Positions 16,181-31,846 of a stretch of 64,000 nucleotides of DNA are shown piece by piece. How positions within the stretch are numbered: the stretch's first letter is position 1; every line of letters starts with the position of its first letter. Made by a program: the position numbers and the translations under genes. The DNA is from Dictyobacter vulcani (lineage in GTDB: Bacteria; Chloroflexota; Ktedonobacteria; Ktedonobacterales; Ktedonobacteraceae), in assembly GCF_008974265.1 (NCBI RefSeq), contig NZ_BKZW01000001.1, forward strand, positions 3,596,001 through 3,660,000. Reading direction: 5' to 3'. A model generated the notes under the pieces. That model was given only the letters and a program-made list of their open reading frames with translations. It had not been told where the DNA came from and searched no databases.

Positions 16181-17464
16181 CTAATGTATCTTGCTTTGTG
16201 CTTCTAGAATGGCTTTTGCAATGTCAAATGGTTTGATGTGCCCGAAGTAATTTGCTTTTTTATGTATCCACCCGTACTTTCTTATGCCAGGATACATTTG
16301 TCTTTGTAGAGCGTTTCCTTCGCCAAGAATGGTTGTAAGTTTTGGATATCCCCAATATCCCGGTCTTGTACCTCCCCAAAGAGTAATAATCGCAGTGTTG
16401 TTCCTTGGTTGTATGCTACTCATATCTCTTTCTGGCGTTATCTTTTGCGTTGCCGCCAGGTGCATCAGTCCTGTATCACCTGTAATGAAAATGTCTGCTT
16501 GATCGATAAGAGCTGTGGTGTCGAGCAAGTGTTCTGGCTGCAAAGCTGTTTCTACGACATATTGAATTTGTCTGCCATACAAGGCTTCAAGTTCTTTATA
16601 CACTTGTTCATGAGCTTCGGGACATGTATACCCAGGTAGAATCCCAACAACTATGCGAGGATTGTGATGGAGCGCTCGCGCAATGCCAGAAACGAGCAAT
16701 TCTGCTGGTGGTCTGGTAACTGAAGAAGAGGTATCAGCCCCGACAAGTAATAACAGTCCATCCGGTTTCTCTGCCTGTTCCTTCAGTTGAGCGACTCTCC
16801 TCTCTGCGTTGGCCACCCGGTGACGTGCCAGAAAGAGTGGCACAGGCTCTGCTCGATCATTTCTCAATGAAGGCTGAACAGCAAAATAGTCATCAACCAA
16901 TACTCTGGTCCTTATATACTTCGGTATATCCTTTAACATGGGTAATGGTAGTAGCGAAAGTTTTTCTACGATGGCTTGTATTTCAAAATTGCGCAAACTG
17001 TTATGTGTGTAGTTTTGCCTTTTTCCAAAGAGTAACGCAAAGTTTTTTGGATCTTCAATAAAAATAGTTTCATATTCAGGTAGAAGTGCTGCGTATTCCA
17101 GCCGTATCTGGGTCATATGTTCAGATTGTTCGTAGAAATCTTTGGGAATCGGAAGAATGCGCATTTCTGTTCCATCAGAAGATGGAGTGGGTATGAATGA
17201 CCTCGGAAGTGCTATCTGATACATTCTTGGATGATCGGCCACAATCTGTATTTGTACCTCGGTACATAAAAGATCAATCGTGGCGTCTGGTTGGTATTTC
17301 CAAATTCTGTCAGCCGTTTCTAGTGCGAATATCATATCGCCAATAACCAACCATGGTTGAATAAGATATGGTCCTCTCTTTGTTGTTGTTCCAGTGGATA
17401 GTACGCGCCATCGCTGGCGCCTTACGAATGACGCCACACAAATGTGAGGGTTGAGCATGTTCAT
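16181..17464 (-). CDS. Glycosyltransferase family 9 protein
   Basis: A 427-residue heptosyltransferase-like GT-B enzyme that would transfer a sugar from a nucleotide donor. The N-terminal lobe has PWLVIGDMIFALETADRIWKYQPDATIDLLC; the C-terminal lobe has LLLVGADTSSSV and the GT9 motif ADIFITGDTGLMHLAATQ, which binds the donor. AAGGAAG lies immediately before ATG 17464 and is six bases from the ATG at 17458, so the second may be the true start. It is the last gene of the five-gene cyclitol operon, 77 bases after the kinase-like gene. In context it may glycosylate the cyclitol product or attach it to an envelope polymer; donor and acceptor are not visible from sequence. Confidence 0.82.
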   Translation of the reverse strand: MNMLNPHICVASFVRRQRWRVLSTGTTTKRGPYLIQPWLVIGDMIFALETADRIWKYQPDATIDLLCTEVQIQIVADHPRMYQIALPRSFIPTPSSDGTEMRILPIPKDFYEQSEHMTQIRLEYAALLPEYETIFIEDPKNFALLFGKRQNYTHNSLRNFEIQAIVEKLSLLPLPMLKDIPKYIRTRVLVDDYFAVQPSLRNDRAEPVPLFLARHRVANAERRVAQLKEQAEKPDGLLLLVGADTSSSVTRPPAELLVSGIARALHHNPRIVVGILPGYTCPEAHEQVYKELEALYGRQIQYVVETALQPEHLLDTTALIDQADIFITGDTGLMHLAATQKITPERDMSSIQPRNNTAIITLWGGTRPGYWGYPKLTTILGEGNALQRQMYPGIRKYGWIHKKANYFGHIKPFDIAKAILEAQSKIH

Positions 17465-17541: not shown

Positions 17542-18852
17542 TTACGTGAGAGAAAAGCCACGTAAATATTCATTTACTATGTGCGCAATGTCCTGTAATG
17601 TATAGTTGTGAGGGTTATAGATGGAATGGAAAAGAAACTGTTGCAACAGCAGATCATATCGATTACCATTGCTGATTTGCGGGAATTCATCAAGCGCCAC
17701 AAAACAGTCGAAGCTTTGATGCATTATCGCATGTTTCACCTCTTGTCTTTTCGCAAAGTGTTTCCTATACACTAAACGATACAAGCTGCAAAGCATCGCA
17801 AAGATGTCCCTGTGTCGATAGATCGTAGAAGTGTAAGGAATGGTCGGCGAATGCCTGAAGTCAATGAGCGCCGGGGTGTATTTATCAATGAGCCAATTTT
17901 CCTCGTGAGCATCGCCATGCGAAAGTTCGAGTGTTGAGTGCAAGGCAATGAGCTTGGACAAGCACAAAGCATACATCTGTAATGTTTCAGGAAGAGTTCT
18001 CTGTTGTTGTTCCAGTTGTTCGATGTAATGTGCGAAACTATCGCCTTCAATATACTCCATTAAAATGCCATTGAGACGAGCATCATACGATAAATACTGA
18101 GGTGTTGAAATACCTGATTCTTTGATAGCTGTCAGCATAGGCTGTAGTGCACGATAATTTTCCTCCAAGGCCACTTTTCCTAACTTTAAGGCGGTGACAG
18201 CACCACTTATTTGGTTGTGCACTTTAAGAACCACACTTTCAAATCCTTCCCCAAGAACCTCCGTAATTTGAAAGCATTCTGTGGAGAAAGACAAGGGGAT
18301 ATGATTTTCTATATGTGGCAACAGCGTTTCCAGAGACAAACTGGTGCATGCTTCCGTTTTCTCTCCAGGTCTATTTCCTTCGCAAATGAGTGCCAGCACC
18401 TTCTTACCCTCAATACAAAGGAAAGACGCGTCATTCTGGAATTGCCTTGCGATGGCCAGACTCAAGATATTTCCAGTTATCTCGTCCCTTAAGAAATGGT
18501 GATGCCATCCTCTGTATTCCATGCTGTATAAATAGGTGTAGTTTTGTTGAAAATCCCGACCGTTCTCTTCTCTACATGACGCTTTATACTCCACAATGGC
18601 ACGGGCCACATGTAGAGATAATTGATGAGATTGTGCAAAAAGGTGTGTGTGTCGTTTGAGATAGCCTTGCAAGTTCCACACGTTTATAAGTGAGCCACTC
18701 TGGTCGCTCATAGCGTTTTTATTGCCAGAATTGTTACTCCAGGCCATAGGATCAAAGAGACATAAATTACAAGGCAAGCCTATCACCTCAAATCTGCTGT
18801 CTGTTGGCTTAAAAAATGCTCCATCATATGGATGCATCCCTGCTTTTTTCAT
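17542..18852 (-). CDS. Protein-kinase-like (Kdo/RIO/APH-type) protein
   Basis: A 436-residue protein. Residues about 195-340 form a eukaryotic-like kinase core: glycine loop VLGEGFESVV (199-208), candidate ATP lysine in ALKLGK (K223), catalytic loop SHGDAHEENW (HGD 312-314, N319) and metal-binding DFR (D331). The HGDxxxxN form is typical of Kdo kinases, aminoglycoside phosphotransferases and RIO-like enzymes acting on small molecules or lipid sugars. The N-terminal 190 residues are unrecognised and cysteine-containing. The gene starts five bases after the dehydrogenase-HD stop, so it is translationally linked. It may phosphorylate the cyclitol or its glycoside, as a biosynthetic step or for self-protection; the substrate is unproven. 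Confidence 0.75.
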   Translation of the reverse strand: MKKAGMHPYDGAFFKPTDSRFEVIGLPCNLCLFDPMAWSNNSGNKNAMSDQSGSLINVWNLQGYLKRHTHLFAQSHQLSLHVARAIVEYKASCREENGRDFQQNYTYLYSMEYRGWHHHFLRDEITGNILSLAIARQFQNDASFLCIEGKKVLALICEGNRPGEKTEACTSLSLETLLPHIENHIPLSFSTECFQITEVLGEGFESVVLKVHNQISGAVTALKLGKVALEENYRALQPMLTAIKESGISTPQYLSYDARLNGILMEYIEGDSFAHYIEQLEQQQRTLPETLQMYALCLSKLIALHSTLELSHGDAHEENWLIDKYTPALIDFRHSPTIPYTSTIYRHRDIFAMLCSLYRLVYRKHFAKRQEVKHAIMHQSFDCFVALDEFPQISNGNRYDLLLQQFLFHSIYNPHNYTLQDIAHIVNEYLRGFSLT

Positions 18853-18857
18853 CTTTT

Positions 18858-20972
18858 TTACACTCTCACGTTTTCATAGAGGGCCACAACATCGTACGCA
18901 TCCTTTTGTAACACCTGGGGGAGAGCATATGTACAGCGACACTTTGCGATATACGCTTTGAACATGACAATCTCTTCTTGGCTACGTTGGGGTATTTTCG
19001 ATGGTGGAAGCTCGCTGACCCACGCATAATTTGTATAGTTATCTAATACCTTTAAGATGGGACTGAGAGGGTGTTTGGGAGTAGAAATTAATCGGGTATA
19101 CTGCTCATTTTTGATTGCCAGGTTGATGAGGGCATTCCTCCGACCTTGCTCCCTTTCATCATATCCTATCTGCCGAAGAAAAGGCACGAAAGCATTCCCA
19201 TGCAGATAATCTATCACGTGTGCCAGAGGCATTGTTTCAAACGTTCTGTCCTGGGCCAGGTCTATGGCAATAGATGCGACTGTCCTCCCAAACTGTTCTT
19301 GAAGATAGTATGCGTCAAGTGTTGTATACTCCATGACGTCATGGAGTAGTAGAGCTGCGATAACCTGGGGATCAACAATTGATAAGTGTGTTATCGCATA
19401 CTCAGCCATGTCTAAAGGATGAAAAATAAAGCGTGTGCCATCAGGCCGAAAACGTCGTTCTTTTTGCATCCCCTGATACGCATTATTGGCCACCAGAAAG
19501 GCCTTTTCAAGAAGCTTCCTCTCTTTGGCACACAATTCTTTATTCTTTATGGTTTGATAGCGCCCTTCTAAGGTTTCCACAATGGTATCCATGGAGGCTC
19601 TAATGGAGGCAAAGGTATTTTTTTTGTGTATACTTTTGGAATTGTATTGTGCTATTGCACGCATCCCTTTTCCTGTCAAGAATTCCCTGCTTTTTTGCGG
19701 AAACATTGAGGTGTACTCATCAAGGGTATAGATGCCCTTCCCCAGTAACCGGAAGTCAACAAGAATCTTGCCGATGTGAGTATGATGGATTGTGTTTCCT
19801 TTGGTTGCCAGCGCAAATACATGCGGTAATGCATTGAGGGAAACCACATGTGTTATCTGATCTAAAGGATTTATTCCGTATTTTTCAAATTCACCTCGGA
19901 CGAGATAGGACAAAACCTGGTGAAATAATGGCTGAGTAGTGCCATGCACTCCCATAAGTTTAAGTGGCTTGCCATGCACGACAATATCCTTTTCAAGATC
20001 ATCATGTCGTATGGAATAGAGATTCACGATATCTGAATCTGTTTGAAGGACTTCCTCTTTTCCGATACCTGCCACAAGCAGAATAGTTCCTTGTGGGTTG
20101 AGGTACTCGATGGCTTTTTTTACAGCACTCCCATGCGAAGCCACTAGCACATAATCTACACCGCCTATCGTTCGAAAATGCTGGAGAATCTTCGTGCTCA
20201 CATCGTCGTCATCAGGAAAATAATAATCTGGTTTTGCTACTCTCACAGCATGGGCTAATCTGATTTGATCTCTGTTCACAAGCGTAATGGACTTTGCCTG
20301 ATTGATCCTGGCCATGCAGGCTGCGAAGACAGCAATGCTTCCCGCTCCGGTAATGACGATATTTTTGCCCTGTAACAAATTCACTTCATCATCAGGCATT
20401 GAATCTGCTGTTGTGAGGTAGTGATCGTAGAACTCTCTTGGTTTGGGACCTCCTTTTCGCAGATAATCGAGTGCATGGAGTGCTACTGTCATAGGTTCCA
20501 CTAAGGCCGCAGTTGCAGGGGCAATGCATTGAGTAGAGAGGTAGGCATCGATTGGGATAATTCTGCGCTGTGGCTCACACATCACAAAATCAGCAGGCAC
20601 GCGATAGAATCTCCCCAAAACTCCGTCTAAATGCAAATCTCTTTTTTGAGCATCTGGATGGTTGCAATCGACCACCACAAACATACCTCTTCTGTAGCCT
20701 TTTTCTTTCGCTTTTTTTCCGACGTCAATAATGATCGCAAACGCTTCATGTCCAATTCTTCCGGCCGGAACTGGACGTTCCCCGGTATAGACCCGTAGAT
20801 CAGTACCACAAATACCGGCGGCACACATCATCAATGTCATCTCTTCCTCGCCACATGGCTCGGGCAACTCCAGGTCCACCCACATTTGATAGGGTTTATC
20901 CCTTTGAATGACCTCATAAGGTGCCTCATAATGGCAGTACATCTTTTCCCATGCATCTAATGGATGAACCAT
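18858..20972 (-). CDS. Zn-type dehydrogenase fused to RSH-like HD domain
   Basis: About 704 residues from the ATG at 20972, which follows CGGAGG; the frame is open to 21110 but would overlap the upstream gene. Residues 1-400 are a medium-chain dehydrogenase: catalytic zinc ligands in GICGTD (C55), GHE (H75, E76) and VEP (E159), and a NAD(P) Rossmann motif GAGSIA (209-214). The structural-zinc four-cysteine loop is absent. Residues about 485-625 match the HD domain of RelA/SpoT/Mesh1 hydrolases: RFIFHPLDMAEY (H518), ALLLHDVMEYT (H544, D545) and EQFGRTVASI. I know no standard family with this fusion. The dehydrogenase part resembles cyclitol dehydrogenases of the AcbL type. It starts 34 bases after the kinase-cyclase gene. 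Confidence 0.82.
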   Translation of the reverse strand: MVHPLDAWEKMYCHYEAPYEVIQRDKPYQMWVDLELPEPCGEEEMTLMMCAAGICGTDLRVYTGERPVPAGRIGHEAFAIIIDVGKKAKEKGYRRGMFVVVDCNHPDAQKRDLHLDGVLGRFYRVPADFVMCEPQRRIIPIDAYLSTQCIAPATAALVEPMTVALHALDYLRKGGPKPREFYDHYLTTADSMPDDEVNLLQGKNIVITGAGSIAVFAACMARINQAKSITLVNRDQIRLAHAVRVAKPDYYFPDDDDVSTKILQHFRTIGGVDYVLVASHGSAVKKAIEYLNPQGTILLVAGIGKEEVLQTDSDIVNLYSIRHDDLEKDIVVHGKPLKLMGVHGTTQPLFHQVLSYLVRGEFEKYGINPLDQITHVVSLNALPHVFALATKGNTIHHTHIGKILVDFRLLGKGIYTLDEYTSMFPQKSREFLTGKGMRAIAQYNSKSIHKKNTFASIRASMDTIVETLEGRYQTIKNKELCAKERKLLEKAFLVANNAYQGMQKERRFRPDGTRFIFHPLDMAEYAITHLSIVDPQVIAALLLHDVMEYTTLDAYYLQEQFGRTVASIAIDLAQDRTFETMPLAHVIDYLHGNAFVPFLRQIGYDEREQGRRNALINLAIKNEQYTRLISTPKHPLSPILKVLDNYTNYAWVSELPPSKIPQRSQEEIVMFKAYIAKCRCTYALPQVLQKDAYDVVALYENVRV

Positions 20973-21006
20973 AAAGCCTCCGTTTCTTGCTATTCCCTTG
21001 CTACTT

Positions 21007-24000
21007 TCACACGAGCACACAGTGATGAGCAATGTCATACTGTTGCCCTGTTGTTTGTATATCCGACTTAAATTTCTTGTTGTTGAGATCGGTAGACTTG
21101 AGATATTCAAGTGTTTTCTTCAGGACGTCAAAAGAAATATGTTCAATGAAGACCATTTTCCCTACTCGTGCAGGAATAGGCAGATGCAAATTGTTGCCTC
21201 GGGCAAGGCGAATGTCTGTGATCGATTTAAAGAGACTTTCCGCATCACATGCTTCATCGAAAATGGGCAACCCTACTGCCATCAAGACGTGAATGATTCG
21301 ATTGCGCGTTTCCTCTGTACAATATCCTTGAAGGAAAGCAAGTTGCGCACAGATGGCCATATCAATAGCGACTGCTTCACCATGGAGAATTCGATGACCG
21401 CTGTTCATTTCCAGGCATGGGCTGAACGTGTGTCCAAAGTCGACTAATCGCTTGAGTGTTTTATCCTCATGTAAATTTGTGTGGAGTTCTTTCAACATCC
21501 AATATGTAGCAAGCTCAAGTAATGCGCTTGCGTATCTTCCTGTCTGTAATCGCTCGGGCATCAGTCTGTTGTGATAGTCCTCAATAATTTTGACAATTTT
21601 GGGTTCTCGAACAATTCCCATCTTGAGGACTTCTGCTAAACCTGCCCGCATATTACGCGGAGAGACGGTTTGTAAGAATGTAACGTCATTGAGACAGACA
21701 AGAGGAGCATAAAAGTCACCTAAGAAGTTTTTTGTTCCCTGGTAATTACATCCCACTTTGACCCCTATTCCAGCATCGATTACACCCAGGAGCGTGGTGG
21801 GAATTCTGATATATGGTTTTTCTGTGAGCGCAGCGGCAAATCCAGCGAGGTCCATAGTAACTCCACCACCGATACAGATGAGCATCTCCTTGGGATCGTA
21901 ACCCATGAGGATTTGTCGCACAAGTGCTAAGACCTGGGTAAAATATTTGTTGTTTTCGCCGCCAGCATACACATAGTATCGATAATATATCTTATTTACG
22001 TTCAGATACCTCTTTATCTTTTCACCGTAGATGATATCTGCTGCTTCACTTATCACAACAAATGCCGCATTCCCTGGCACATAGGAGGACAAGGTGGTAT
22101 TGTCCAGATCGAAAAGATGGTGTGCAAACACAACTCTATAGTGGTCTTTTAGGAGTGTTGTCTTGATTGTTGGCAGTATCTGAGGCGAATAGCGCTGAAC
22201 CAGCGTTTCATCGAGCACGATAAAGCTAGGTAGATGATAGTTTGAGACAGAGGCTTTTGTTTCCTGGGCATCCATATCCACTGTGTTGCGTGATGTGGCC
22301 AGATCTTCGAGTCTATCATCGAGTGGTATGAAGATATGAGGAATTCCTCTCCGATAGATGGCAGCTGCTAATCCGCCACAGTGGAGAGTTGCCCTGCTTC
22401 CTATTGTTAGAAAATAATCTTTACGTCCTAATTTGAACGTTTTAGCCGCGAGAAGAAGCGCTTCAACATCCCTCATACTTATATCAGCAGTGCACGCTAT
22501 TTTGTAGTGAGAAAATGAGAGAGCGCTTGTTTGGAAATAACCCCGCATCTTCTCCTCTAGTCTGAATGAAAGATGACTATCTGTGACCACCATCACCTTA
22601 GGAGTACCTTCGCTTCTCCTAGTCAATATGTTCTGCAGCGTTATATTTGATGGTTCGAAAACATTGCATGTTCGAATGTAGGAGGTATATTTTTCAGTAC
22701 ATGCCTGCATCTCAAAGACGGTTGAGCCACGGGTATCTATTGAGCGTGTTACTTCTCCCTGCAACTTTTTATCAAATTGTTGTTTTGCACAGACTGAACC
22801 AATCACTCCATCTAGATCATCACCGAGGGCCCATTCGACGTTCTTTTGAAGATATGTTTGTGCCTGTTTATCCTCTGATCCTTTACTTATATGCGTTATG
22901 AGCATTTCTAGAAACACTTTTTGGATAGATAAGACAAATCCACCCATAATGACAATTTTTTTTGGGCCTCGATTGAGTATCTCCTGAAATTGTGGAGAAA
23001 ACTTCTCCATCATTTCATTGATATAATCCATCACAAATGCGTCTTTGTTATTAATCGCTATAGCTATCTCTCTGTTCGTTATCATTGTTGCCAGCAGAAA
23101 TAGCTCATTTTTATTTTTCTGTAAATCTTGGATGGATAGGGATGTTTTTTGCAAAAATGTGGTCATTTCTCTATCAGAGAGATCGGCGTTTTTATGTATT
23201 AATGAGACACTAGCCGCAGATTGTAACTGTTCTTTTTTCTCTTCCAAAGACATGCTTGAAAAGCGTTCTCTGAGTACACCGCAGAGAGACGAATGGGCAA
23301 ATTTGTGCAGATCATGGGAGGCACGCTCACGTACTCTGGTTTCTACAGCTTTTCCAGAAAAATAAGCGGTCAGGTGCCCTTTGCCTCCACAGTCACAATC
23401 AAGGGCCTCACTTGAAAGATCTACAGTTCTATGGCCGAGAGAAACAAGATCTTTTTCTCCAAAAGCGGATGCTGATCTGTTGAAGAGAGCATACCCCACT
23501 CCTGTACTAATGGTTACCAGTGCCAGGGTTTGAACCTGTGGATACAGTCGGGCATAACGAAAGGCCGCAGCAATGACATCATTAACAATAAACCATGTCA
23601 TTTCTGGCTTCTTATTTTCTAATTGTTGTTTCAGGAAGAAAGAGTCTGAAATATCAGTCTCACCCCATCTGCCCCACGTAAAATACAAATCCGCTGCTTT
23701 TGTGATGACTGCATTGTCTTTGACAAGCCCTGCAAATGATACGACGCCGGAGCTGATTACCACCGAAGGGTTGTCTTTTTGTAACTGTTTAACTGCCTGA
23801 ATGATGTATTCAACCAGGATGTGTTGTAATGTCTCGACGGAATAGGAGGGATAGCGTTTCAACGTTGGCGTGGGAAAGACAATGAGACCATGGTTTTTTG
23901 TCGCAATAGTTCTGACTTCACACGCGGTAAAATGTAGTTGTGTCTGGCACTGCTGATAACCCACCAGGTTCGAGTTACTATCAACAAGGCCAACTCGTGT

Positions 24001-24039
24001 TTGTGTGCCCCCAACATCTACACCTATGGAATAATGCAT
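21007..24039 (-). CDS. ROK-family kinase fused to sugar phosphate cyclase
   Basis: A 1010-residue fusion. Residues 1-420 are a ROK kinase: VDVGGTQTR phosphate loop (8-16), STGVGYALF, and the zinc signature CDCGGKGH (215-222). Residues about 600-985 are a sugar phosphate cyclase of the dehydroquinate-synthase fold: GGGVTMDLAGFAAAL (724-738), PTTLLGVIDAGIGVKVG (747-763) and metal ligands E803 (GLAEVLK), H870 (FGHTF) and H886 (LHGEA). The DAGIGVK form is closer to 2-epi-5-epi-valiolone synthases than to dehydroquinate synthases. Residues 480-600 look like a decayed second cyclase N-lobe (TIGSRATLHCGGLAAAIYRR). In acarbose and validamycin pathways separate EEVS and ROK C7-cyclitol kinases do these steps. 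It follows the HAD gene by about ten bases. Confidence 0.85.
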   Translation of the reverse strand: MHYSIGVDVGGTQTRVGLVDSNSNLVGYQQCQTQLHFTACEVRTIATKNHGLIVFPTPTLKRYPSYSVETLQHILVEYIIQAVKQLQKDNPSVVISSGVVSFAGLVKDNAVITKAADLYFTWGRWGETDISDSFFLKQQLENKKPEMTWFIVNDVIAAAFRYARLYPQVQTLALVTISTGVGYALFNRSASAFGEKDLVSLGHRTVDLSSEALDCDCGGKGHLTAYFSGKAVETRVRERASHDLHKFAHSSLCGVLRERFSSMSLEEKKEQLQSAASVSLIHKNADLSDREMTTFLQKTSLSIQDLQKNKNELFLLATMITNREIAIAINNKDAFVMDYINEMMEKFSPQFQEILNRGPKKIVIMGGFVLSIQKVFLEMLITHISKGSEDKQAQTYLQKNVEWALGDDLDGVIGSVCAKQQFDKKLQGEVTRSIDTRGSTVFEMQACTEKYTSYIRTCNVFEPSNITLQNILTRRSEGTPKVMVVTDSHLSFRLEEKMRGYFQTSALSFSHYKIACTADISMRDVEALLLAAKTFKLGRKDYFLTIGSRATLHCGGLAAAIYRRGIPHIFIPLDDRLEDLATSRNTVDMDAQETKASVSNYHLPSFIVLDETLVQRYSPQILPTIKTTLLKDHYRVVFAHHLFDLDNTTLSSYVPGNAAFVVISEAADIIYGEKIKRYLNVNKIYYRYYVYAGGENNKYFTQVLALVRQILMGYDPKEMLICIGGGVTMDLAGFAAALTEKPYIRIPTTLLGVIDAGIGVKVGCNYQGTKNFLGDFYAPLVCLNDVTFLQTVSPRNMRAGLAEVLKMGIVREPKIVKIIEDYHNRLMPERLQTGRYASALLELATYWMLKELHTNLHEDKTLKRLVDFGHTFSPCLEMNSGHRILHGEAVAIDMAICAQLAFLQGYCTEETRNRIIHVLMAVGLPIFDEACDAESLFKSITDIRLARGNNLHLPIPARVGKMVFIEHISFDVLKKTLEYLKSTDLNNKKFKSDIQTTGQQYDIAHHCVLV

Positions 24040-24232
24040 ACAAGACCTCCTAGAAAAAAAAGACTTTTTCTATTTCTTCCAATTTTTCTGGCCATTGCTT
24101 TATGATTCTGTCTGGTTTACAGTCCAAGAGCATCAAGTAGTCTGTTGGCCCTGTCGCGATCGCTACGGTTTTTACGCCCACCTTTTGACCGGCTGCAATA
24201 TCTCCAACAGCATCACCAATAGTGATGACTTG

Positions 24233-25560
24233 GAGGGTGTACAATACTTTGTGTAAGTGATCCTACAATAAGGAGTGAATGATGAAGAAGAAGATGGAAG
24301 ACGGAGGCAAGCATATGAGCATTCGACCTGAATTGATTGACGAATTACTCAAAGAATGTACCGATCCTACCCAATTGTTGGCCGAAGGCGGTTTCCTCAA
24401 GCAGCTGACAGGCGCCCTCGTGGAACGGTGTTTGCAAGCGGAGATGGACGTGCACCTGGGCTATCCCAAACATGGGAAACGTGATGAAACGACTGGCAAT
24501 GTCCGCAATGGCAGCAGCCGCAAGACGCTCAAGGGCTCACAGGGAGAGATTGATATCGTCGTCCCCCGCGATCGGCATGCCAGCTTCGAACCACTCTTGA
24601 TCCCCAAGCACGAAACACGACTGGAAGGCTTTGACGAGAAGATCCTGGCCTTGTATGCTCGTGGCATGACCACACGCGACATTCAAGCGCAGATCCAGGA
24701 ACTCTATGGGGTTGAGGTCTCACCCACGTTCATTTCCAATGTGACGGAAGCCGTCCTGGACGAGGTTCGTCAATGGCAGCATCGACCCTTAGAGACCCTC
24801 TATCCCATTATCTATGTGGATTGCCTGGTCGTCAAAGTGCGCGAAAATCAGCGGATCATCAATCGAGCCCTCTACCTGGCTTTGGGCGTGGATATGCACG
24901 GACAAAAAGAGTTACTGGGAATGTGGCTGGGTCACAATGAAGGAGCCAAATTCTGGTTGTCAGTCTTCACCGAACTGCAGAACCGGGGACTTAAAGACAT
25001 TTTCATCGCCTGTGTCGATGGTTTGACCGGCTTACCCGAAGCGATTGAAACACTCTATCCTCACGCACGAGTCCAGCTCTGCATGGTTCATATGGTGCGT
25101 AATTCACTCAAATATGTGTCCTACAAACATCGCAAGGAGGTCGCGGCAGACTTGAAATTGATCTACTCAGCTGCCACGGAAAGTGAAGCGCAGGTCTACC
25201 TGGATCTCTTTGCCGAGAAATGGGATCGGCAGTACGCAAGCATCAGCAAAATGTGGAGAACCAACTGGAGTCATGTCGTCCCGCTGTTTGCCTTTCCCGA
25301 GGACATTCGCAAGGTGATCTACACCACCAATGCGATCGAGTCAGTGAACATGTCGTTACGCAAAGTCACGCGCAATCACCGCATTTTTCCCTCAGATGAG
25401 GCCGTCTACAAAGTGGTCTATCTAGCTATGCACAACATTGCCAAGAAGTGGACCATGCCGATCCGTAATTGGATACCTGCATTAAATTGTTTTGCGATTG
25501 AATTTGGGGAGAGATTTCCTCACTAAATGAAATGACATACACAAAGTACTTGACAGACTC
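24233..25560 (+). mobile_element. IS256-family insertion sequence
   Basis: The 1328-bp element has imperfect terminal inverted repeats of about 29 bp, both beginning GAG and sharing TACTTTGTGTA (left end at 24233; right end reading inward from 25560). Its insertion duplicated ATGACTTG (24225-24232 and 25561-25568). It encodes one transposase and lies within the HAD phosphatase gene, in opposite orientation. The intact duplication suggests recent insertion. Confidence 0.95.
24279..25526 (+). CDS. IS256-family transposase
   Basis: A 415-residue Mutator-type DDE transposase. The catalytic acids are visible as IIYVDCLVV (D181), ACVDGLTG (D247) and TTNAIESVN (E354), with the CMVHMVRNSL motif between the last two, as usual for the family. 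AAGGAG lies before the ATG at 24279. The frame is complete and appears active. It is the only gene of the element that splits the HAD phosphatase. Confidence 0.95.
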   Translation: MMKKKMEDGGKHMSIRPELIDELLKECTDPTQLLAEGGFLKQLTGALVERCLQAEMDVHLGYPKHGKRDETTGNVRNGSSRKTLKGSQGEIDIVVPRDRHASFEPLLIPKHETRLEGFDEKILALYARGMTTRDIQAQIQELYGVEVSPTFISNVTEAVLDEVRQWQHRPLETLYPIIYVDCLVVKVRENQRIINRALYLALGVDMHGQKELLGMWLGHNEGAKFWLSVFTELQNRGLKDIFIACVDGLTGLPEAIETLYPHARVQLCMVHMVRNSLKYVSYKHRKEVAADLKLIYSAATESEAQVYLDLFAEKWDRQYASISKMWRTNWSHVVPLFAFPEDIRKVIYTTNAIESVNMSLRKVTRNHRIFPSDEAVYKVVYLAMHNIAKKWTMPIRNWIPALNCFAIEFGERFPH

Positions 25561-26286
25561 ATGACTTGTTGGCTGTTGGCATGATTCTCCTGCAGGATCT
25601 TTTGCAAGGTCTCCTCTTTCATAAGAGATGTTTCATTCCACATGACGCCAAAAACATCATCAAAGATATCTGCGATTGCCAGCATCTTGAGTATGTTTTC
25701 GGAAATATGTTGTAAATTTAAGGACACGGCATATATCTTTAGCCCTCTCTTCGCTTTTTGTTGTCTTAAAAAAGAAAGACTCCCATTGATGCCCGGAACA
25801 AGAGATACCCTTCTGCCATATTCGTAGAGCTGATTCGCAATGTAGAAATGCTCTGGATGATGAACTAACTCCCAATATCTGTTCTCTATCCATTCCACAC
25901 ACATCTGTCTAACATTTTCTCTTTCCTTCTCATATTTAAATTGTAGAAAGCCATCTTGTATCAAAAGATCGAAAAACAGGTCTAACTGTTGCGGAGCTGT
26001 TAAATGAAGGCTGGTTGTATATGCGTTCCAGCCCACTAAAAATTGCTCGAATGGAAAATGTATAGATGCATTTAAAGCAAACGTATTTTTAAATCTGTAC
26101 AAAAGTTCGCTAAAAAGATATCCGTAGCGTTGATAGTTTCCATACCATACGGTGTTATCCAAATCTAACACAACTATAGTAGGCGTATTTTGCGTACATA
26201 TGCTTTTCATCATTCAATTCAATCTCATAATAGTGATTTTCTGCTAAAAGCAAACAATCATTTCAACAAGAGCAGTGTTATTTCTA

Positions 26287-27503: not shown

Positions 27504-29843
27504 TTATACGTCGGGTTTCAAACAACGTGAGACTGCGGCATCTACTGAATCATAGTAGGCGAAGTCCCTATTACCGTTTGGCTTGAATGACCAAACGGTT
27601 AACCCAGTCGAATCCCTCTGTGGTCCTCCTTCAGTAACGAGTCCCGGTGAGACAAATCTCACATACACTCGTGGTGATGTTGGGCTGGCTGGTCGGATCT
27701 GAACGAGCTTCCTCATAGCGTCAGAATGCAAATGGGGGCCTTTTGTGTCGATTGCGTATACATCATTATCTGACCAAATAAGGAAATCTGGATAGAAGTT
27801 TTCTGTTTTTCCAGGCTCAACGAGCGGAATACCATATCCCGTCCGAGGAGGGTTTCTGCACCATACCAAGTTCGTCCGATCTAGCGCTTGAGCAAAAATT
27901 ATCTCGTCAGCGTTGAGATTTTCATAGCCATCATGAAGAGCATGTTGGAATAGGGCAACGTCTTCAGATTGCTGAAGGAGTGGACCAACGACGTAAGGAT
28001 TGGGTTTTCGGAGCTTAAGATAGACGTTCTCTACAAAAGCTTGGGCTACCTCTTTGGCGACGTTTGTGACATGTACTGAAGCATTGCTACCTAAACCGAT
28101 CCAGGCATCGAACTTTGTCGGTGTGCCAGTACCACTCGATGTCATTGCAATACCAAGTGCTCCAGGATACACGCGGCGCACTTCACGAGTGAACAGCCAT
28201 CGAGCTAGCACCATTGCAGAGTGTCCTACTTCCTCCCAAATGAATGATTCGTTGCCTGGTTGCCCCACAATTTTCTGAACGCGGGTAGTACGGCCGATAC
28301 CCAATATGTTTGCACCACTATCATCTCGGTAGTCTGTCATCGTCGTGATACATCGATTAATTGGCTCTTCTGCGCTGTCTGTAATAATGGCACTAACTGG
28401 TACAGTTTTGACTGACTTAGGTTTGTATTCTTCTCTATTCTTTTTGCCAGGTGGACTTTTAATGAGTTTGATGCTCATGTTCTCATTCTGGATTTTCTTC
28501 TGGACCAATGAGACTACCTCATCGAACACACCCATTGACTCTACTCGGACATGAATCTGTGCCATATTGAGACGATCTGCCGGGTAGTGACGCCTTTCCG
28601 GTTGGCGTAAGAGGCGACCAACAACTTGCTCTGCTTGTACCTTTGAGCCCATACTCTTATCAATGTACGCGAAATAGATAAGAGGATCGTCCCAACCCTC
28701 TTGAAGACTCTGATTAAAGATGATATGTCGAAAATTCCCTTTTATGAAATCATCATAGTCGTTATCTCCACCATTGAATAGTATGAATTCATTTGGCAGT
28801 GGGAAATTCTTGTCCACTCGTAGGTCGGAATAAACAGCTATTTCGGCTGGGTCAACGCCAAGTGTCTCGGTGAGATGCTTCCAAATCCGGATAGGTGGAG
28901 CTTGGCGGTGAGCAAACGGCTGCTTGTGGTTATCACGTTCATCAGATCCTTCTACCACATTAGTTTTACAAATATAGACAGCTTTTGGCCGACCCTGAAG
29001 GCCAAAAGCTTTACCGTCTTGCTCAGTCTGTTTCAGTTCGTGAAGCATTAACTCGATGACCTGTTCCATGGGTGCTTGATGACCTACCAACTCAATAGTT
29101 GTCTTGATTAGACCAGAGTCTGCCACTGCCTTAGCATCAACTGTGGTCATAAGATCATCATCAGTTTTATTCCCTATCTTATAGAGAATATCTATGATTT
29201 CCTCGTTAAATCGTTTTGGAAGCCGTTGCGTAGCTGTTGCAAGGAGAAATGCATCAGGCTCTAACTCCATAAGCAAGTCCGTTTGTTGGTCGCTCAGGTT
29301 CTGTGCTTCGTCGTACACCACTATAAGTGGCCGACGATTGCCATCTGGATCAGGCCGCAACTGAAGTGCATTCCATGTTGACTGGGAAGTGTCATCAATC
29401 CCACTTTGGAAGACTTTGCGGCTCCCGTGTTCCTTGTCTTTCTGATTAAAAGTACCAACTGTGGCGAAAAATAGGAAGGGGTTACGCTCATGGGCTACCT
29501 CGGTTGAGTCGTATTCAGCAAGGGATCGAACGCCAAAGTCACTAATGAGGCTGTGTAGCCCTCCTCCTGTATCTAGATTGGCATACGTTTGTTCGACGAC
29601 AACTGTCGCTTTCGATAACCAAAGAATGATAGGTTTAATGGAGATTCCATGAGATATAGATGCCACGGTATCGGCAAGAATAATAGTTTTGCCTGAGGCA
29701 GTAATAGATGAAAGTAATTGAATAAAAGGTATACGTTTAGTTGTTCGTCCTTTTGCAAATTCTAGTGGCTCATTATAGTACGCGATAACACGATCAGCAA
29801 TCTGATCCGCGGCATGTGCTTGGAATTCGTATAAATCGATCAT
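27504..29843 (-). CDS. res: Type III restriction enzyme, Res subunit
   Basis: A 779-residue translocase-endonuclease that cuts unmodified DNA together with Mod. Helicase motifs: Walker A TASGKT (48-53), DEAQ box (178-181), motif III-like LLATATQRLP, and motif VI QVVGRLLRQPERR. The C-terminal nuclease is of PD-(D/E)xK type: PDFLIW then AIDTKG (D686, D699, K701). Its start overlaps the mod stop by four bases (29840-29843), so the pair is translationally coupled. Length is somewhat shorter than the 900-1000 residues of EcoP1I-type Res. It appears intact. Confidence 0.9.
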   Translation of the reverse strand: MIDLYEFQAHAADQIADRVIAYYNEPLEFAKGRTTKRIPFIQLLSSITASGKTIILADTVASISHGISIKPIILWLSKATVVVEQTYANLDTGGGLHSLISDFGVRSLAEYDSTEVAHERNPFLFFATVGTFNQKDKEHGSRKVFQSGIDDTSQSTWNALQLRPDPDGNRRPLIVVYDEAQNLSDQQTDLLMELEPDAFLLATATQRLPKRFNEEIIDILYKIGNKTDDDLMTTVDAKAVADSGLIKTTIELVGHQAPMEQVIELMLHELKQTEQDGKAFGLQGRPKAVYICKTNVVEGSDERDNHKQPFAHRQAPPIRIWKHLTETLGVDPAEIAVYSDLRVDKNFPLPNEFILFNGGDNDYDDFIKGNFRHIIFNQSLQEGWDDPLIYFAYIDKSMGSKVQAEQVVGRLLRQPERRHYPADRLNMAQIHVRVESMGVFDEVVSLVQKKIQNENMSIKLIKSPPGKKNREEYKPKSVKTVPVSAIITDSAEEPINRCITTMTDYRDDSGANILGIGRTTRVQKIVGQPGNESFIWEEVGHSAMVLARWLFTREVRRVYPGALGIAMTSSGTGTPTKFDAWIGLGSNASVHVTNVAKEVAQAFVENVYLKLRKPNPYVVGPLLQQSEDVALFQHALHDGYENLNADEIIFAQALDRTNLVWCRNPPRTGYGIPLVEPGKTENFYPDFLIWSDNDVYAIDTKGPHLHSDAMRKLVQIRPASPTSPRVYVRFVSPGLVTEGGPQRDSTGLTVWSFKPNGNRDFAYYDSVDAAVSRCLKPDV

Positions 29844-31846
29844 TCGTCGGCTTCCTCCTCGATGAAAGGTTCGCTACGCATATCGAGACCGAAATCGGCT
29901 AGAATGCGATCTGGAATTTGATAGAAGCGAATTCCATCGGTCTGATATCGATACAATCTTGCGTAAACATGATACGGAGCAGATTTCAGCCCTGCAAGTT
30001 CTGCTTCTTCTGCACAGGCCTCATAAACCAATTCTGTGAAATCTGTGTTGGAGTCTGGACCATCCCAAACAAGGAAGAAACCCTCATGCTCAGTATTTTG
30101 TGCGATGAGATACCTATAAGGTGTCTTGCCATTATCAACCCGTATGAGGTGATCTCCTCGACGGCTTCGGGTATCGAAGTGAGAAGCAATAACAGTATCA
30201 AGCATCTCGTCGCGTTCCATTCGTAGGAGGGCACCAGCATCAACCTTCTTGCCAAGTTTGAGAAACGAAAATCCTCCACCCAACTTTATACCTTTTCCAT
30301 TTACCCAATCGCCACTGGCCGCTTTTTTGAGACGCTCTGCAGTAAGCGTCTGTGCGTAAGAGTCACCTCTCTGAGGACTTCCCTGTTCAATGAGGACGAA
30401 TCTACGGTTGCTACCTGTAAGATAGTTCAACCCGAGAACAGCATGGCCCGTTGTACCAGATCCTCCAAAAGGATCAAGAACAAAACCATCGGGAGGGCAC
30501 CATAATTGGATGATCTTTTCGAAAAGTCTCAATGGTTTCACAGTAGCGAAACCATGGTTGGGACCAACGATCGCGTCCAGCTCCTTGATTCCTGTTTGTG
30601 AGTGACCCGATTCCTGATGTTCCCATGAGACAGCACCCAGTTCCTCTGGTAGCTCGTAATCATCATTGGCCCAGTAAGTCATGGGTACAACACCCTTCTT
30701 AACTCGTTCGAGTGAACGTTTAGTTGTCGGGCGGCCCTGACCGTTAGGACCAAAGTAAATCTTAGGCCATGCGCCAGCAGCAAGGCGAGCCTCTGCCTTA
30801 CATCGAGCTTCGTCTAATGGTTCAGCCAAAACAACTGCTTTAGCTGGCTTTAGTTGTGTGACATCAATGCTAAGCAACTCTGCCCGGACTTTATCATCTC
30901 CTAACGCACGAAGTTCAAATTCCACATTCCACTGGCGGAGAGTCTCAAGAAGCGTTTTTTGTGCCATTCTCCAGCAACCCATTGGCGGCGGATAGTGCAG
31001 TTCTCCCGTGAAAGGAGACTGGATGGCATACACCATTCCTTGATTTTGTCGACCTTTTCCTGCTGAAGCATCACCTGGACGCCAAGGCCCGAGAGGATCG
31101 CCGTCGGGGTTGGAATACTTAGCGTTCATCGACGCTGTTCGATTTAGAAGCCCTGTTCGAGCTTTGAAAGTGTCTTTAGCGTACACTAGTACATACTCGG
31201 TCGCTGTAGAGAGATGCTTGTTGTCGTTACGAGGTGCATATGACTTTTGCCAGTTGATAACACCTAGACGATTATCCTCATCAAAGAGTTCATCGAGCAT
31301 CTGGCCAAGTCGGAACAACTCGCGGTGGTCAATACAGATGGCAAGAATTCCTCCTGGCTTTAGCATGGATTTCATCATTTGCAGACGTGGCCACATAAAA
31401 CGCATCCATTTGGTATGCCGTGCGCCATCATCAAGAGAGACAAATTCACCTAGGCCAGGATCATTTGGATCTTCATCCCATCGGTCGTTGTAACGAAAAT
31501 CATTGCCAGTGTTATAAGGAGGATCGGTAAGTATAAGATCAACATGGCCGTGTTCTTTGTAAAGAGTAACCATCGACTGAAGATTGTCACCCTCAACTAA
31601 GATGTTTCTTGCCTGTTCCGTTGGTGATCCATACCCAAGTGAAGGAACATTACGTGTAATGCGAGGTCGTACCAGGCGAGCAAGGCGGCGTGCACTAGAC
31701 TTGCCCGCAAAGTTAATTCGTATGCCACCTCCGCTATTTACTTCGAGAATCTCGAGTAACTGGTCACGAGAAAGATCTTCCAATCGCAGTTGAGCGAACT
31801 TGGATGGAAGAAAAAGATCAGAAATCGCTGGGACTGTGTCTTTCAT
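29840..31846 (-). CDS. mod: Type III DNA-methyltransferase (adenine-N6), Mod subunit
   Basis: A 668-residue methyltransferase that both modifies the host site and gives specificity to the restriction complex. The order of motifs is beta-class: catalytic LTDPPYNTGNDF first (DPPY 108-111), SAM-binding LDPFGGSGTTGHA later (458-). The segment between them contains the probable target-recognition region (about 180-400). The C-terminus (500-668) is probably the Res-binding part. The ATG overlaps the stop of a small upstream ORF (ATGA at 31843-31846). The recognition sequence cannot be read from the protein. Confidence 0.93.
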   Translation of the reverse strand: MKDTVPAISDLFLPSKFAQLRLEDLSRDQLLEILEVNSGGGIRINFAGKSSARRLARLVRPRITRNVPSLGYGSPTEQARNILVEGDNLQSMVTLYKEHGHVDLILTDPPYNTGNDFRYNDRWDEDPNDPGLGEFVSLDDGARHTKWMRFMWPRLQMMKSMLKPGGILAICIDHRELFRLGQMLDELFDEDNRLGVINWQKSYAPRNDNKHLSTATEYVLVYAKDTFKARTGLLNRTASMNAKYSNPDGDPLGPWRPGDASAGKGRQNQGMVYAIQSPFTGELHYPPPMGCWRMAQKTLLETLRQWNVEFELRALGDDKVRAELLSIDVTQLKPAKAVVLAEPLDEARCKAEARLAAGAWPKIYFGPNGQGRPTTKRSLERVKKGVVPMTYWANDDYELPEELGAVSWEHQESGHSQTGIKELDAIVGPNHGFATVKPLRLFEKIIQLWCPPDGFVLDPFGGSGTTGHAVLGLNYLTGSNRRFVLIEQGSPQRGDSYAQTLTAERLKKAASGDWVNGKGIKLGGGFSFLKLGKKVDAGALLRMERDEMLDTVIASHFDTRSRRGDHLIRVDNGKTPYRYLIAQNTEHEGFFLVWDGPDSNTDFTELVYEACAEEAELAGLKSAPYHVYARLYRYQTDGIRFYQIPDRILADFGLDMRSEPFIEEEADE

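Follow-up and report, generated by a model that had tools for sequence, protein, structure and literature searches.

A ROK kinase-sugar phosphate cyclase fusion with an additional, degenerate cyclase N-domain in Dictyobacter vulcani

Described cyclases and kinases and the Dictyobacter fusion

Sugar phosphate cyclases (SPCs) are homodimers in which the arginine at the end of the helix that follows the GGG motif reaches into the active site of the partner subunit and holds the substrate phosphate. In the DHQS of Aspergillus nidulans (AnDHQS), R130 of the neighbouring subunit reportedly binds the substrate phosphonate, and its exchange is said to impair the enzyme more than 100-fold (R130K) or to render it dead (R130A). 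DHQS forms dimers (PMC9074039). The pentafunctional AROM protein and the bifunctional shikimate kinase-DHQS contain an SPC-superfamily domain fused to enzymes of the same pathway, with one complete cyclase domain per chain and dimerisation between chains. The ROK-like kinases AcbM (cyclitol 7-kinase) and ValC (valienone kinase) act after the cyclases AcbC and ValA (PMC9200736).

In a stretch of 64,000 nucleotides from the Dictyobacter vulcani genome (hereafter the window), we identified a gene encoding a ROK kinase, an extra SPC N-domain (lobe 1) and a complete SPC (the catalytic copy) in a single chain (Table 1). In joining a cyclase to an enzyme presumed to serve the same pathway it resembles AROM and shikimate kinase-DHQS, which differ in having no pseudo-N-domain. 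Like ValA (EEVS, PDB 4p53) and Ava_3858 (DDGS, PDB 5tpr), the protein has a full catalytic domain, with the metal-site residues of EEVS and with D867, which we take from ValA numbering to be the EEVS fingerprint aspartate. Unlike these enzymes, it has its cyclase fused to a kinase and an extra N-domain, has no arginine loop in the catalytic copy and carries A946 at a position occupied by histidine in 78 of 84 SPCs and in ValA (the EEVS fingerprint histidine) and by threonine in DDGS. Because A946 replaces the EEVS histidine, the catalytic domain was filed only as an EEVS-like SPC. With AcbM and ValC (PMC9200736) the kinase shares the ROK fold family and its association with an SPC, adjoining there and fused here; a motif comparison made with ROK proteins from SPC loci, standing in for the AcbM and ValC sequences, showed that it differs in a serine in place of the GExGH glutamate and in insertions near residues 41-56 and 265-315. 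Two Eremiobacterota SPCs (L054:9044-11065 and L057:8795-10783) likewise have an N-terminal domain on the SPC and an adjoining ROK gene, but their extension of about 300 amino acids contains no SPC lobe and their arginine loop is intact. The genes of these SPCs lie directly before the ROK gene, and the extension is perhaps a degenerate ASKHA/Hsp70-like domain.

Table 1. Features of the fusion gene and its neighbours (positions in the window; residue numbers of the fusion protein)
Feature	Position	Strand	Basis
Whole gene, ROK kinase - SPC pseudo-N-domain - SPC	21007..24039	-	1010 aa; Pfam and SPC profile
ROK kinase domain, residues 1-~425	22765..24039	-	Pfam ROK 7e-16; aligned to 21 SPC-locus ROK proteins
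N153-D154, putative catalytic Asp of kinase	23578..23583	-	Invariant in 22-row ROK alignment
CDCGGKGH, residues 215-222, variant Zn motif (usual last Cys replaced by His)	23374..23397	-	ROK alignment
Extra SPC N-domain (lobe 1), residues 456-615	22195..22674	-	Profile score, AlphaFold, Foldseek
R539 of lobe 1, near-invariant Arg (P716 in catalytic copy)	22423..22425	-	SPC alignment
GSRATLH, residues 547-553, degraded lobe 1 version of the GGGxxxD NAD-binding motif	22381..22401	-	SPC alignment
Y562-R563-R564-G565, retained arginine loop of lobe 1 (R564 at AnDHQS R130 position)	22345..22356	-	
Complete SPC, residues 633-981	21097..22143	-	SPC profile 366 bits; PDB 4p53; AlphaFold
GGGVTMD, residues 724-730, intact NAD-binding motif of catalytic copy	21850..21870	-	SPC alignment
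T739-E740-K741 then two-residue deletion, arginine loop lost from catalytic copy	21817..21825	-	
VDFGH, residues 866-870 (D867 as in EEVS; H870 metal ligand)	21430..21444	-	SPC alignment
LHGE, residues 885-888 (H886 metal ligand)	21376..21387	-	SPC alignment
A946, EEVS fingerprint His position	21202..21204	-	SPC alignment
Zinc-type alcohol dehydrogenase joined to RelA/SpoT-like HD domain (start codon uncertain)	18858..21110	-	Next gene downstream
RIO/APH-like kinase	17542..18852	-	Pfam; downstream of fusion gene
GT9-like glycosyltransferase	16181..17464	-	Pfam; downstream of fusion gene
3' piece of HAD phosphatase gene, upstream of fusion gene	24050..24232	-	Reads VITIGDAVGDIAAG to stop
Mutator-family (IS256-like) insertion splitting HAD gene	24233..25560	+	8-bp target duplication ATGACTTG on both sides
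5' piece of HAD phosphatase gene	25561..26213	-	Pfam Hydrolase 8.5e-5

Domain layout and distribution of the fusion gene

The gene is a single open reading frame without internal stops and occurs once in the 7.4-Mb genome. Pfam identified a ROK domain at residues 67-245, DHQ_synthase in two separate stretches and DHQS_C at 800-940, and a profile built from 84 SPCs together with ValA and DDGS matched the protein twice, at residues 456-614 (profile positions 17-175) and 633-981 (profile positions 12-370). The initial annotation had read the protein as a kinase, a partial inactive cyclase N-lobe and a full cyclase, a layout that the reading frame, Pfam and the SPC profile support.

The best match of the catalytic domain in the PDB was ValA (4p53, 3e-58), and in an AlphaFold model of residues 436-1010 this part was predicted with a pLDDT of ~95 and a TM-score of 0.94 (of target) to the same structure. 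Residues 633-981 comprise the parts by which the SPC superfamily is recognised, a Rossmann N-domain with GGGxxxD and a helical C-domain with a Glu/His/His metal site. The copy keeps 28 of 31 conserved C-domain columns (including E803, K806, H870 and H886) and is under purifying selection. In a tree it grouped with 16 sequences, mostly of the shorter-loop type from Bacillota and Vulcanimicrobiota (support 99), on a very long branch of 2.4 changes per column.

Lobe 1 scored 45.5 bits against the SPC profile inside the full protein and 50.8 bits alone (E 6e-15), compared with 3.8 bits for the best of 1000 shuffles of its residues. BLASTP aligned residues 440-650 with the protein's own cyclase (E 2e-5) and the lobe 1 region with a Streptomyces clavuligerus cyclase (31% identity over 124 aa, E 1e-10). 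The correspondence of residues 543-575 with 724-747, noted initially, was confirmed by BLASTP and by alignment; the lobe described there as partial and inactive is indeed without its motifs, but the homology takes in the complete Rossmann N-domain (~456-615), well beyond that segment. Modelled alone (residues 441-632), lobe 1 gave a succession of strands and helices of the Rossmann type (pLDDT 83.8, pTM 0.84), in a run that was given N-domain rows, so that the model is consistent with the sequence homology and not independent of it; in the model of 436-1010, where no aligned row covered it, lobe 1 was of low confidence. Foldseek returned DDGS, DOIS, DHQS, GldA and ValA as the best solved matches of the lobe 1 model, and the suggestion that residues 480-600 might be an unrelated linker was not borne out.

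The glycine-rich nucleotide-binding part and the metal site had been reported as lost, and so they are: GGGxxxD of the catalytic copy reads GSRxxxH at 547-553 in lobe 1, and the helical metal-binding C-domain is wholly missing. In catalytic-copy numbering, lobe 1 has lost E695, K698, the second and third glycines of GGG and D730, as well as T748, T749, D755, K761 and N771. With these residues gone, lobe 1 cannot engage NAD or substrate as an SPC normally does.

No full-length relative was found among 60 relatives, in 400 genomes of the phylum searched with lobe 1 or in the 28 other genomes of the family searched with the kinase, and a single-sequence search of genome contigs yielded no relatives. 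Among the best 80 of 322 SPC loci from a profile search of genome contigs, the three-part layout was not seen elsewhere; rarer occurrences beyond these 80 are possible. A second N-lobe was confined to the fusion gene among 187 SPC-matching reading frames scanned. The initial statement that no member with this layout was known agrees with its absence from every other SPC gene examined. Two candidates for a second lobe were rejected: a 361-aa hypothetical protein following the S. clavuligerus cyclase, which is dehydrogenase-like, and the large N-terminal extension of the Eremiobacterota SPCs, which gave no SPC match.

SPCs are also encoded by 61 IMG/VR viral contigs (L128-L188), some longer than 100 kb. 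Each of the 61 cyclases carries the Asp and the His of the EEVS fingerprint, with arginine replacing lysine at position 770. An SDR gene follows the cyclase in L138 and L136, and a choline-kinase-like gene precedes it in L136; these two loci are possible virus-borne cyclitol clusters.

Conserved residues of the two cyclase copies

Twenty-five N-domain columns are conserved at 95% or more in the 84 SPCs. Of these, 22 are intact in the catalytic copy, 7 in lobe 1 and 24 in the two copies combined. Two arginines have been lost from the catalytic copy, one replaced by proline at 716 and the other by lysine at 741 together with a two-residue deletion, and both are present in lobe 1, as R539 and as R564 within the retained Y562-R563-R564-G565. 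From its spacing to the GGGxxxD aspartate (D119 + 11), we take the position-741 arginine to be R130 of AnDHQS. It was found in 84/84 EEVS-like, 61/61 viral and 40/40 DHQS-type sequences (185/185). The catalytic domain has no arginine there, and the same chain carries R564 in lobe 1. Sequencing error is an unlikely cause of the missing loop, the change being in frame and two codons short with intact flanks.

Lobe 1 keeps 6/10 and 4/6 consensus positions at 732-747 and 1/18 at 748-765, and its decay is selective, not uniform. Three invariants are missing from the catalytic copy, and the chance that lobe 1 would retain two or more of them was ~0.18 (hypergeometric), which is not significant, so the argument rests on the identity and contiguity of the residues and not on their count. 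Lobe 1 could instead be a passive leftover of a partial duplication, a linker beside an ordinary cyclase homodimer in which K741 replaces the arginine. This we consider unlikely: the small number of conserved positions in lobe 1 and the non-significant overlap would agree with it, as would the conservative nature of lysine for arginine (K741 might be a partial stand-in), but lobe 1 is still predicted to be a foldable domain, it retains exactly the arginine loop with nearly everything after it lost, lysine never occupies this position in the 185 sequences and the catalytic loop is shortened as well.

We favour, with somewhat more belief than doubt, a bifunctional C7-cyclitol enzyme in which lobe 1 is a pseudo-subunit that makes the homodimer single-chain, R564 completing the catalytic site. 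From a single sequence, we infer that lobe 1 would pack on the catalytic copy and donate this arginine to its active site. Having dropped NAD and substrate binding and the C-domain, lobe 1 would have retained its Y-R-R-G loop and the Rossmann fold used for dimerising; the catalytic copy would have kept the chemistry and, with no partner site to serve, lost its own arginine loop. That an obligate homodimer of the DHQS superfamily has become functionally monomeric, a pseudo-N-domain of the same chain donating the arginine and the next pathway enzyme being fused on, seems to us evenly poised.

The loop before the GGG strand is one residue shorter in both copies than in most actinobacterial SPCs, a feature also of the Bacillota and Vulcanimicrobiota relatives. 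Its occurrence in both copies would fit intragenic duplication, and an SPC gene may first have been fused to a ROK kinase gene and then partly duplicated.

Kinase domain, gene neighbourhood and pathway

The kinase carries the ROK motifs DxGGT, NDxxAA and GH and the zinc motif CxCGxxG. C215, C217, G218 and H222 are invariant in the 22-row ROK alignment, the CxCGxxGH form being common to this domain and the ROK proteins at SPC loci; a solved ROK has GC at this place. The GExGH glutamate, which in ROK kinases contacts the sugar and is nearly invariant in the aligned sequences, has been lost (VSLGH).

ROK genes adjoin SPC genes in Rhizobium, Agrobacterium, Streptomyces, Paenibacillus, other Bacillota and Vulcanimicrobiota, an adjacency spanning Actinomycetota, Bacillota, Vulcanimicrobiota and proteobacteria; in plasmid records the two genes are neighbouring and not fused. 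SPC and ROK gene pairs were also seen on metagenome-assembled contigs of a Saccharibacteria member (L049, where dehydrogenases and another SPC are also encoded) and a Thermoplasmata archaeon (L114). By analogy, ROK kinase and cyclase would fit the first two steps of C7-cyclitol biosynthesis. We infer that sedoheptulose 7-phosphate is probably the substrate of the C-terminal SPC, which would turn it into a valiolone-type C7-cyclitol by ring closure with NAD and a metal, and that the N-terminal ROK domain would phosphorylate a C7-cyclitol in an AcbM/ValC-type reaction.

Dimer-like contact and channelling between kinase and cyclase had both been proposed initially as roles of the extra lobe; the arginine-loop evidence favours the former, and the latter found no support. 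A scaffold guiding the cyclitol from cyclase to kinase would suit the position of lobe 1, which is flanked by enzymes of plausibly consecutive reactions, but it is highly improbable, as it explains neither the residues kept nor the loss of the arginine loop from the catalytic copy.

The downstream genes for the dehydrogenase-HD protein, the RIO/APH-like kinase and the GT9-like glycosyltransferase are consistent with a pseudo-sugar cluster. The joining of a zinc-type alcohol dehydrogenase to an HD domain is itself an unusual pairing. Further away (window 27504-31846, minus strand), a DNA methylase (N6_N4_Mtase) gene lies beside one for a 779-aa helicase/nuclease-subunit-like protein with no Pfam match; the two may form a restriction-modification pair resembling type III.

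A drifting pathway would also fit the long branch, A946, the lost kinase glutamate and the HAD gene split by an insertion element. In a stronger form, the whole gene would be decaying and the enzyme inactive or nearly so in a broken cluster, as the branch length, the catalytic copy without its arginine loop, the kinase glutamate, the intact target duplication around the insertion and the lack of a relative in the 28 family genomes might suggest. This is rather improbable given that the 1010-aa frame is open, that the catalytic copy keeps 50 of 56 near-invariant SPC columns, that the kinase retains its NDxxAA, GGT and zinc motifs and that the insertion sits in the upstream gene and not in the fusion.

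If the pseudo-subunit reading is true, labour would be divided between two copies of one active site within one chain, one keeping the chemistry and the other only the trans-acting arginine. The protein would then be a natural test of the need for the cross-subunit arginine in DHQS-like enzymes and would illustrate a route by which pseudoenzyme domains become fixed. It would also combine cyclase and kinase in one chain for the opening two steps of pseudo-sugar biosynthesis of the acarbose/validamycin type.
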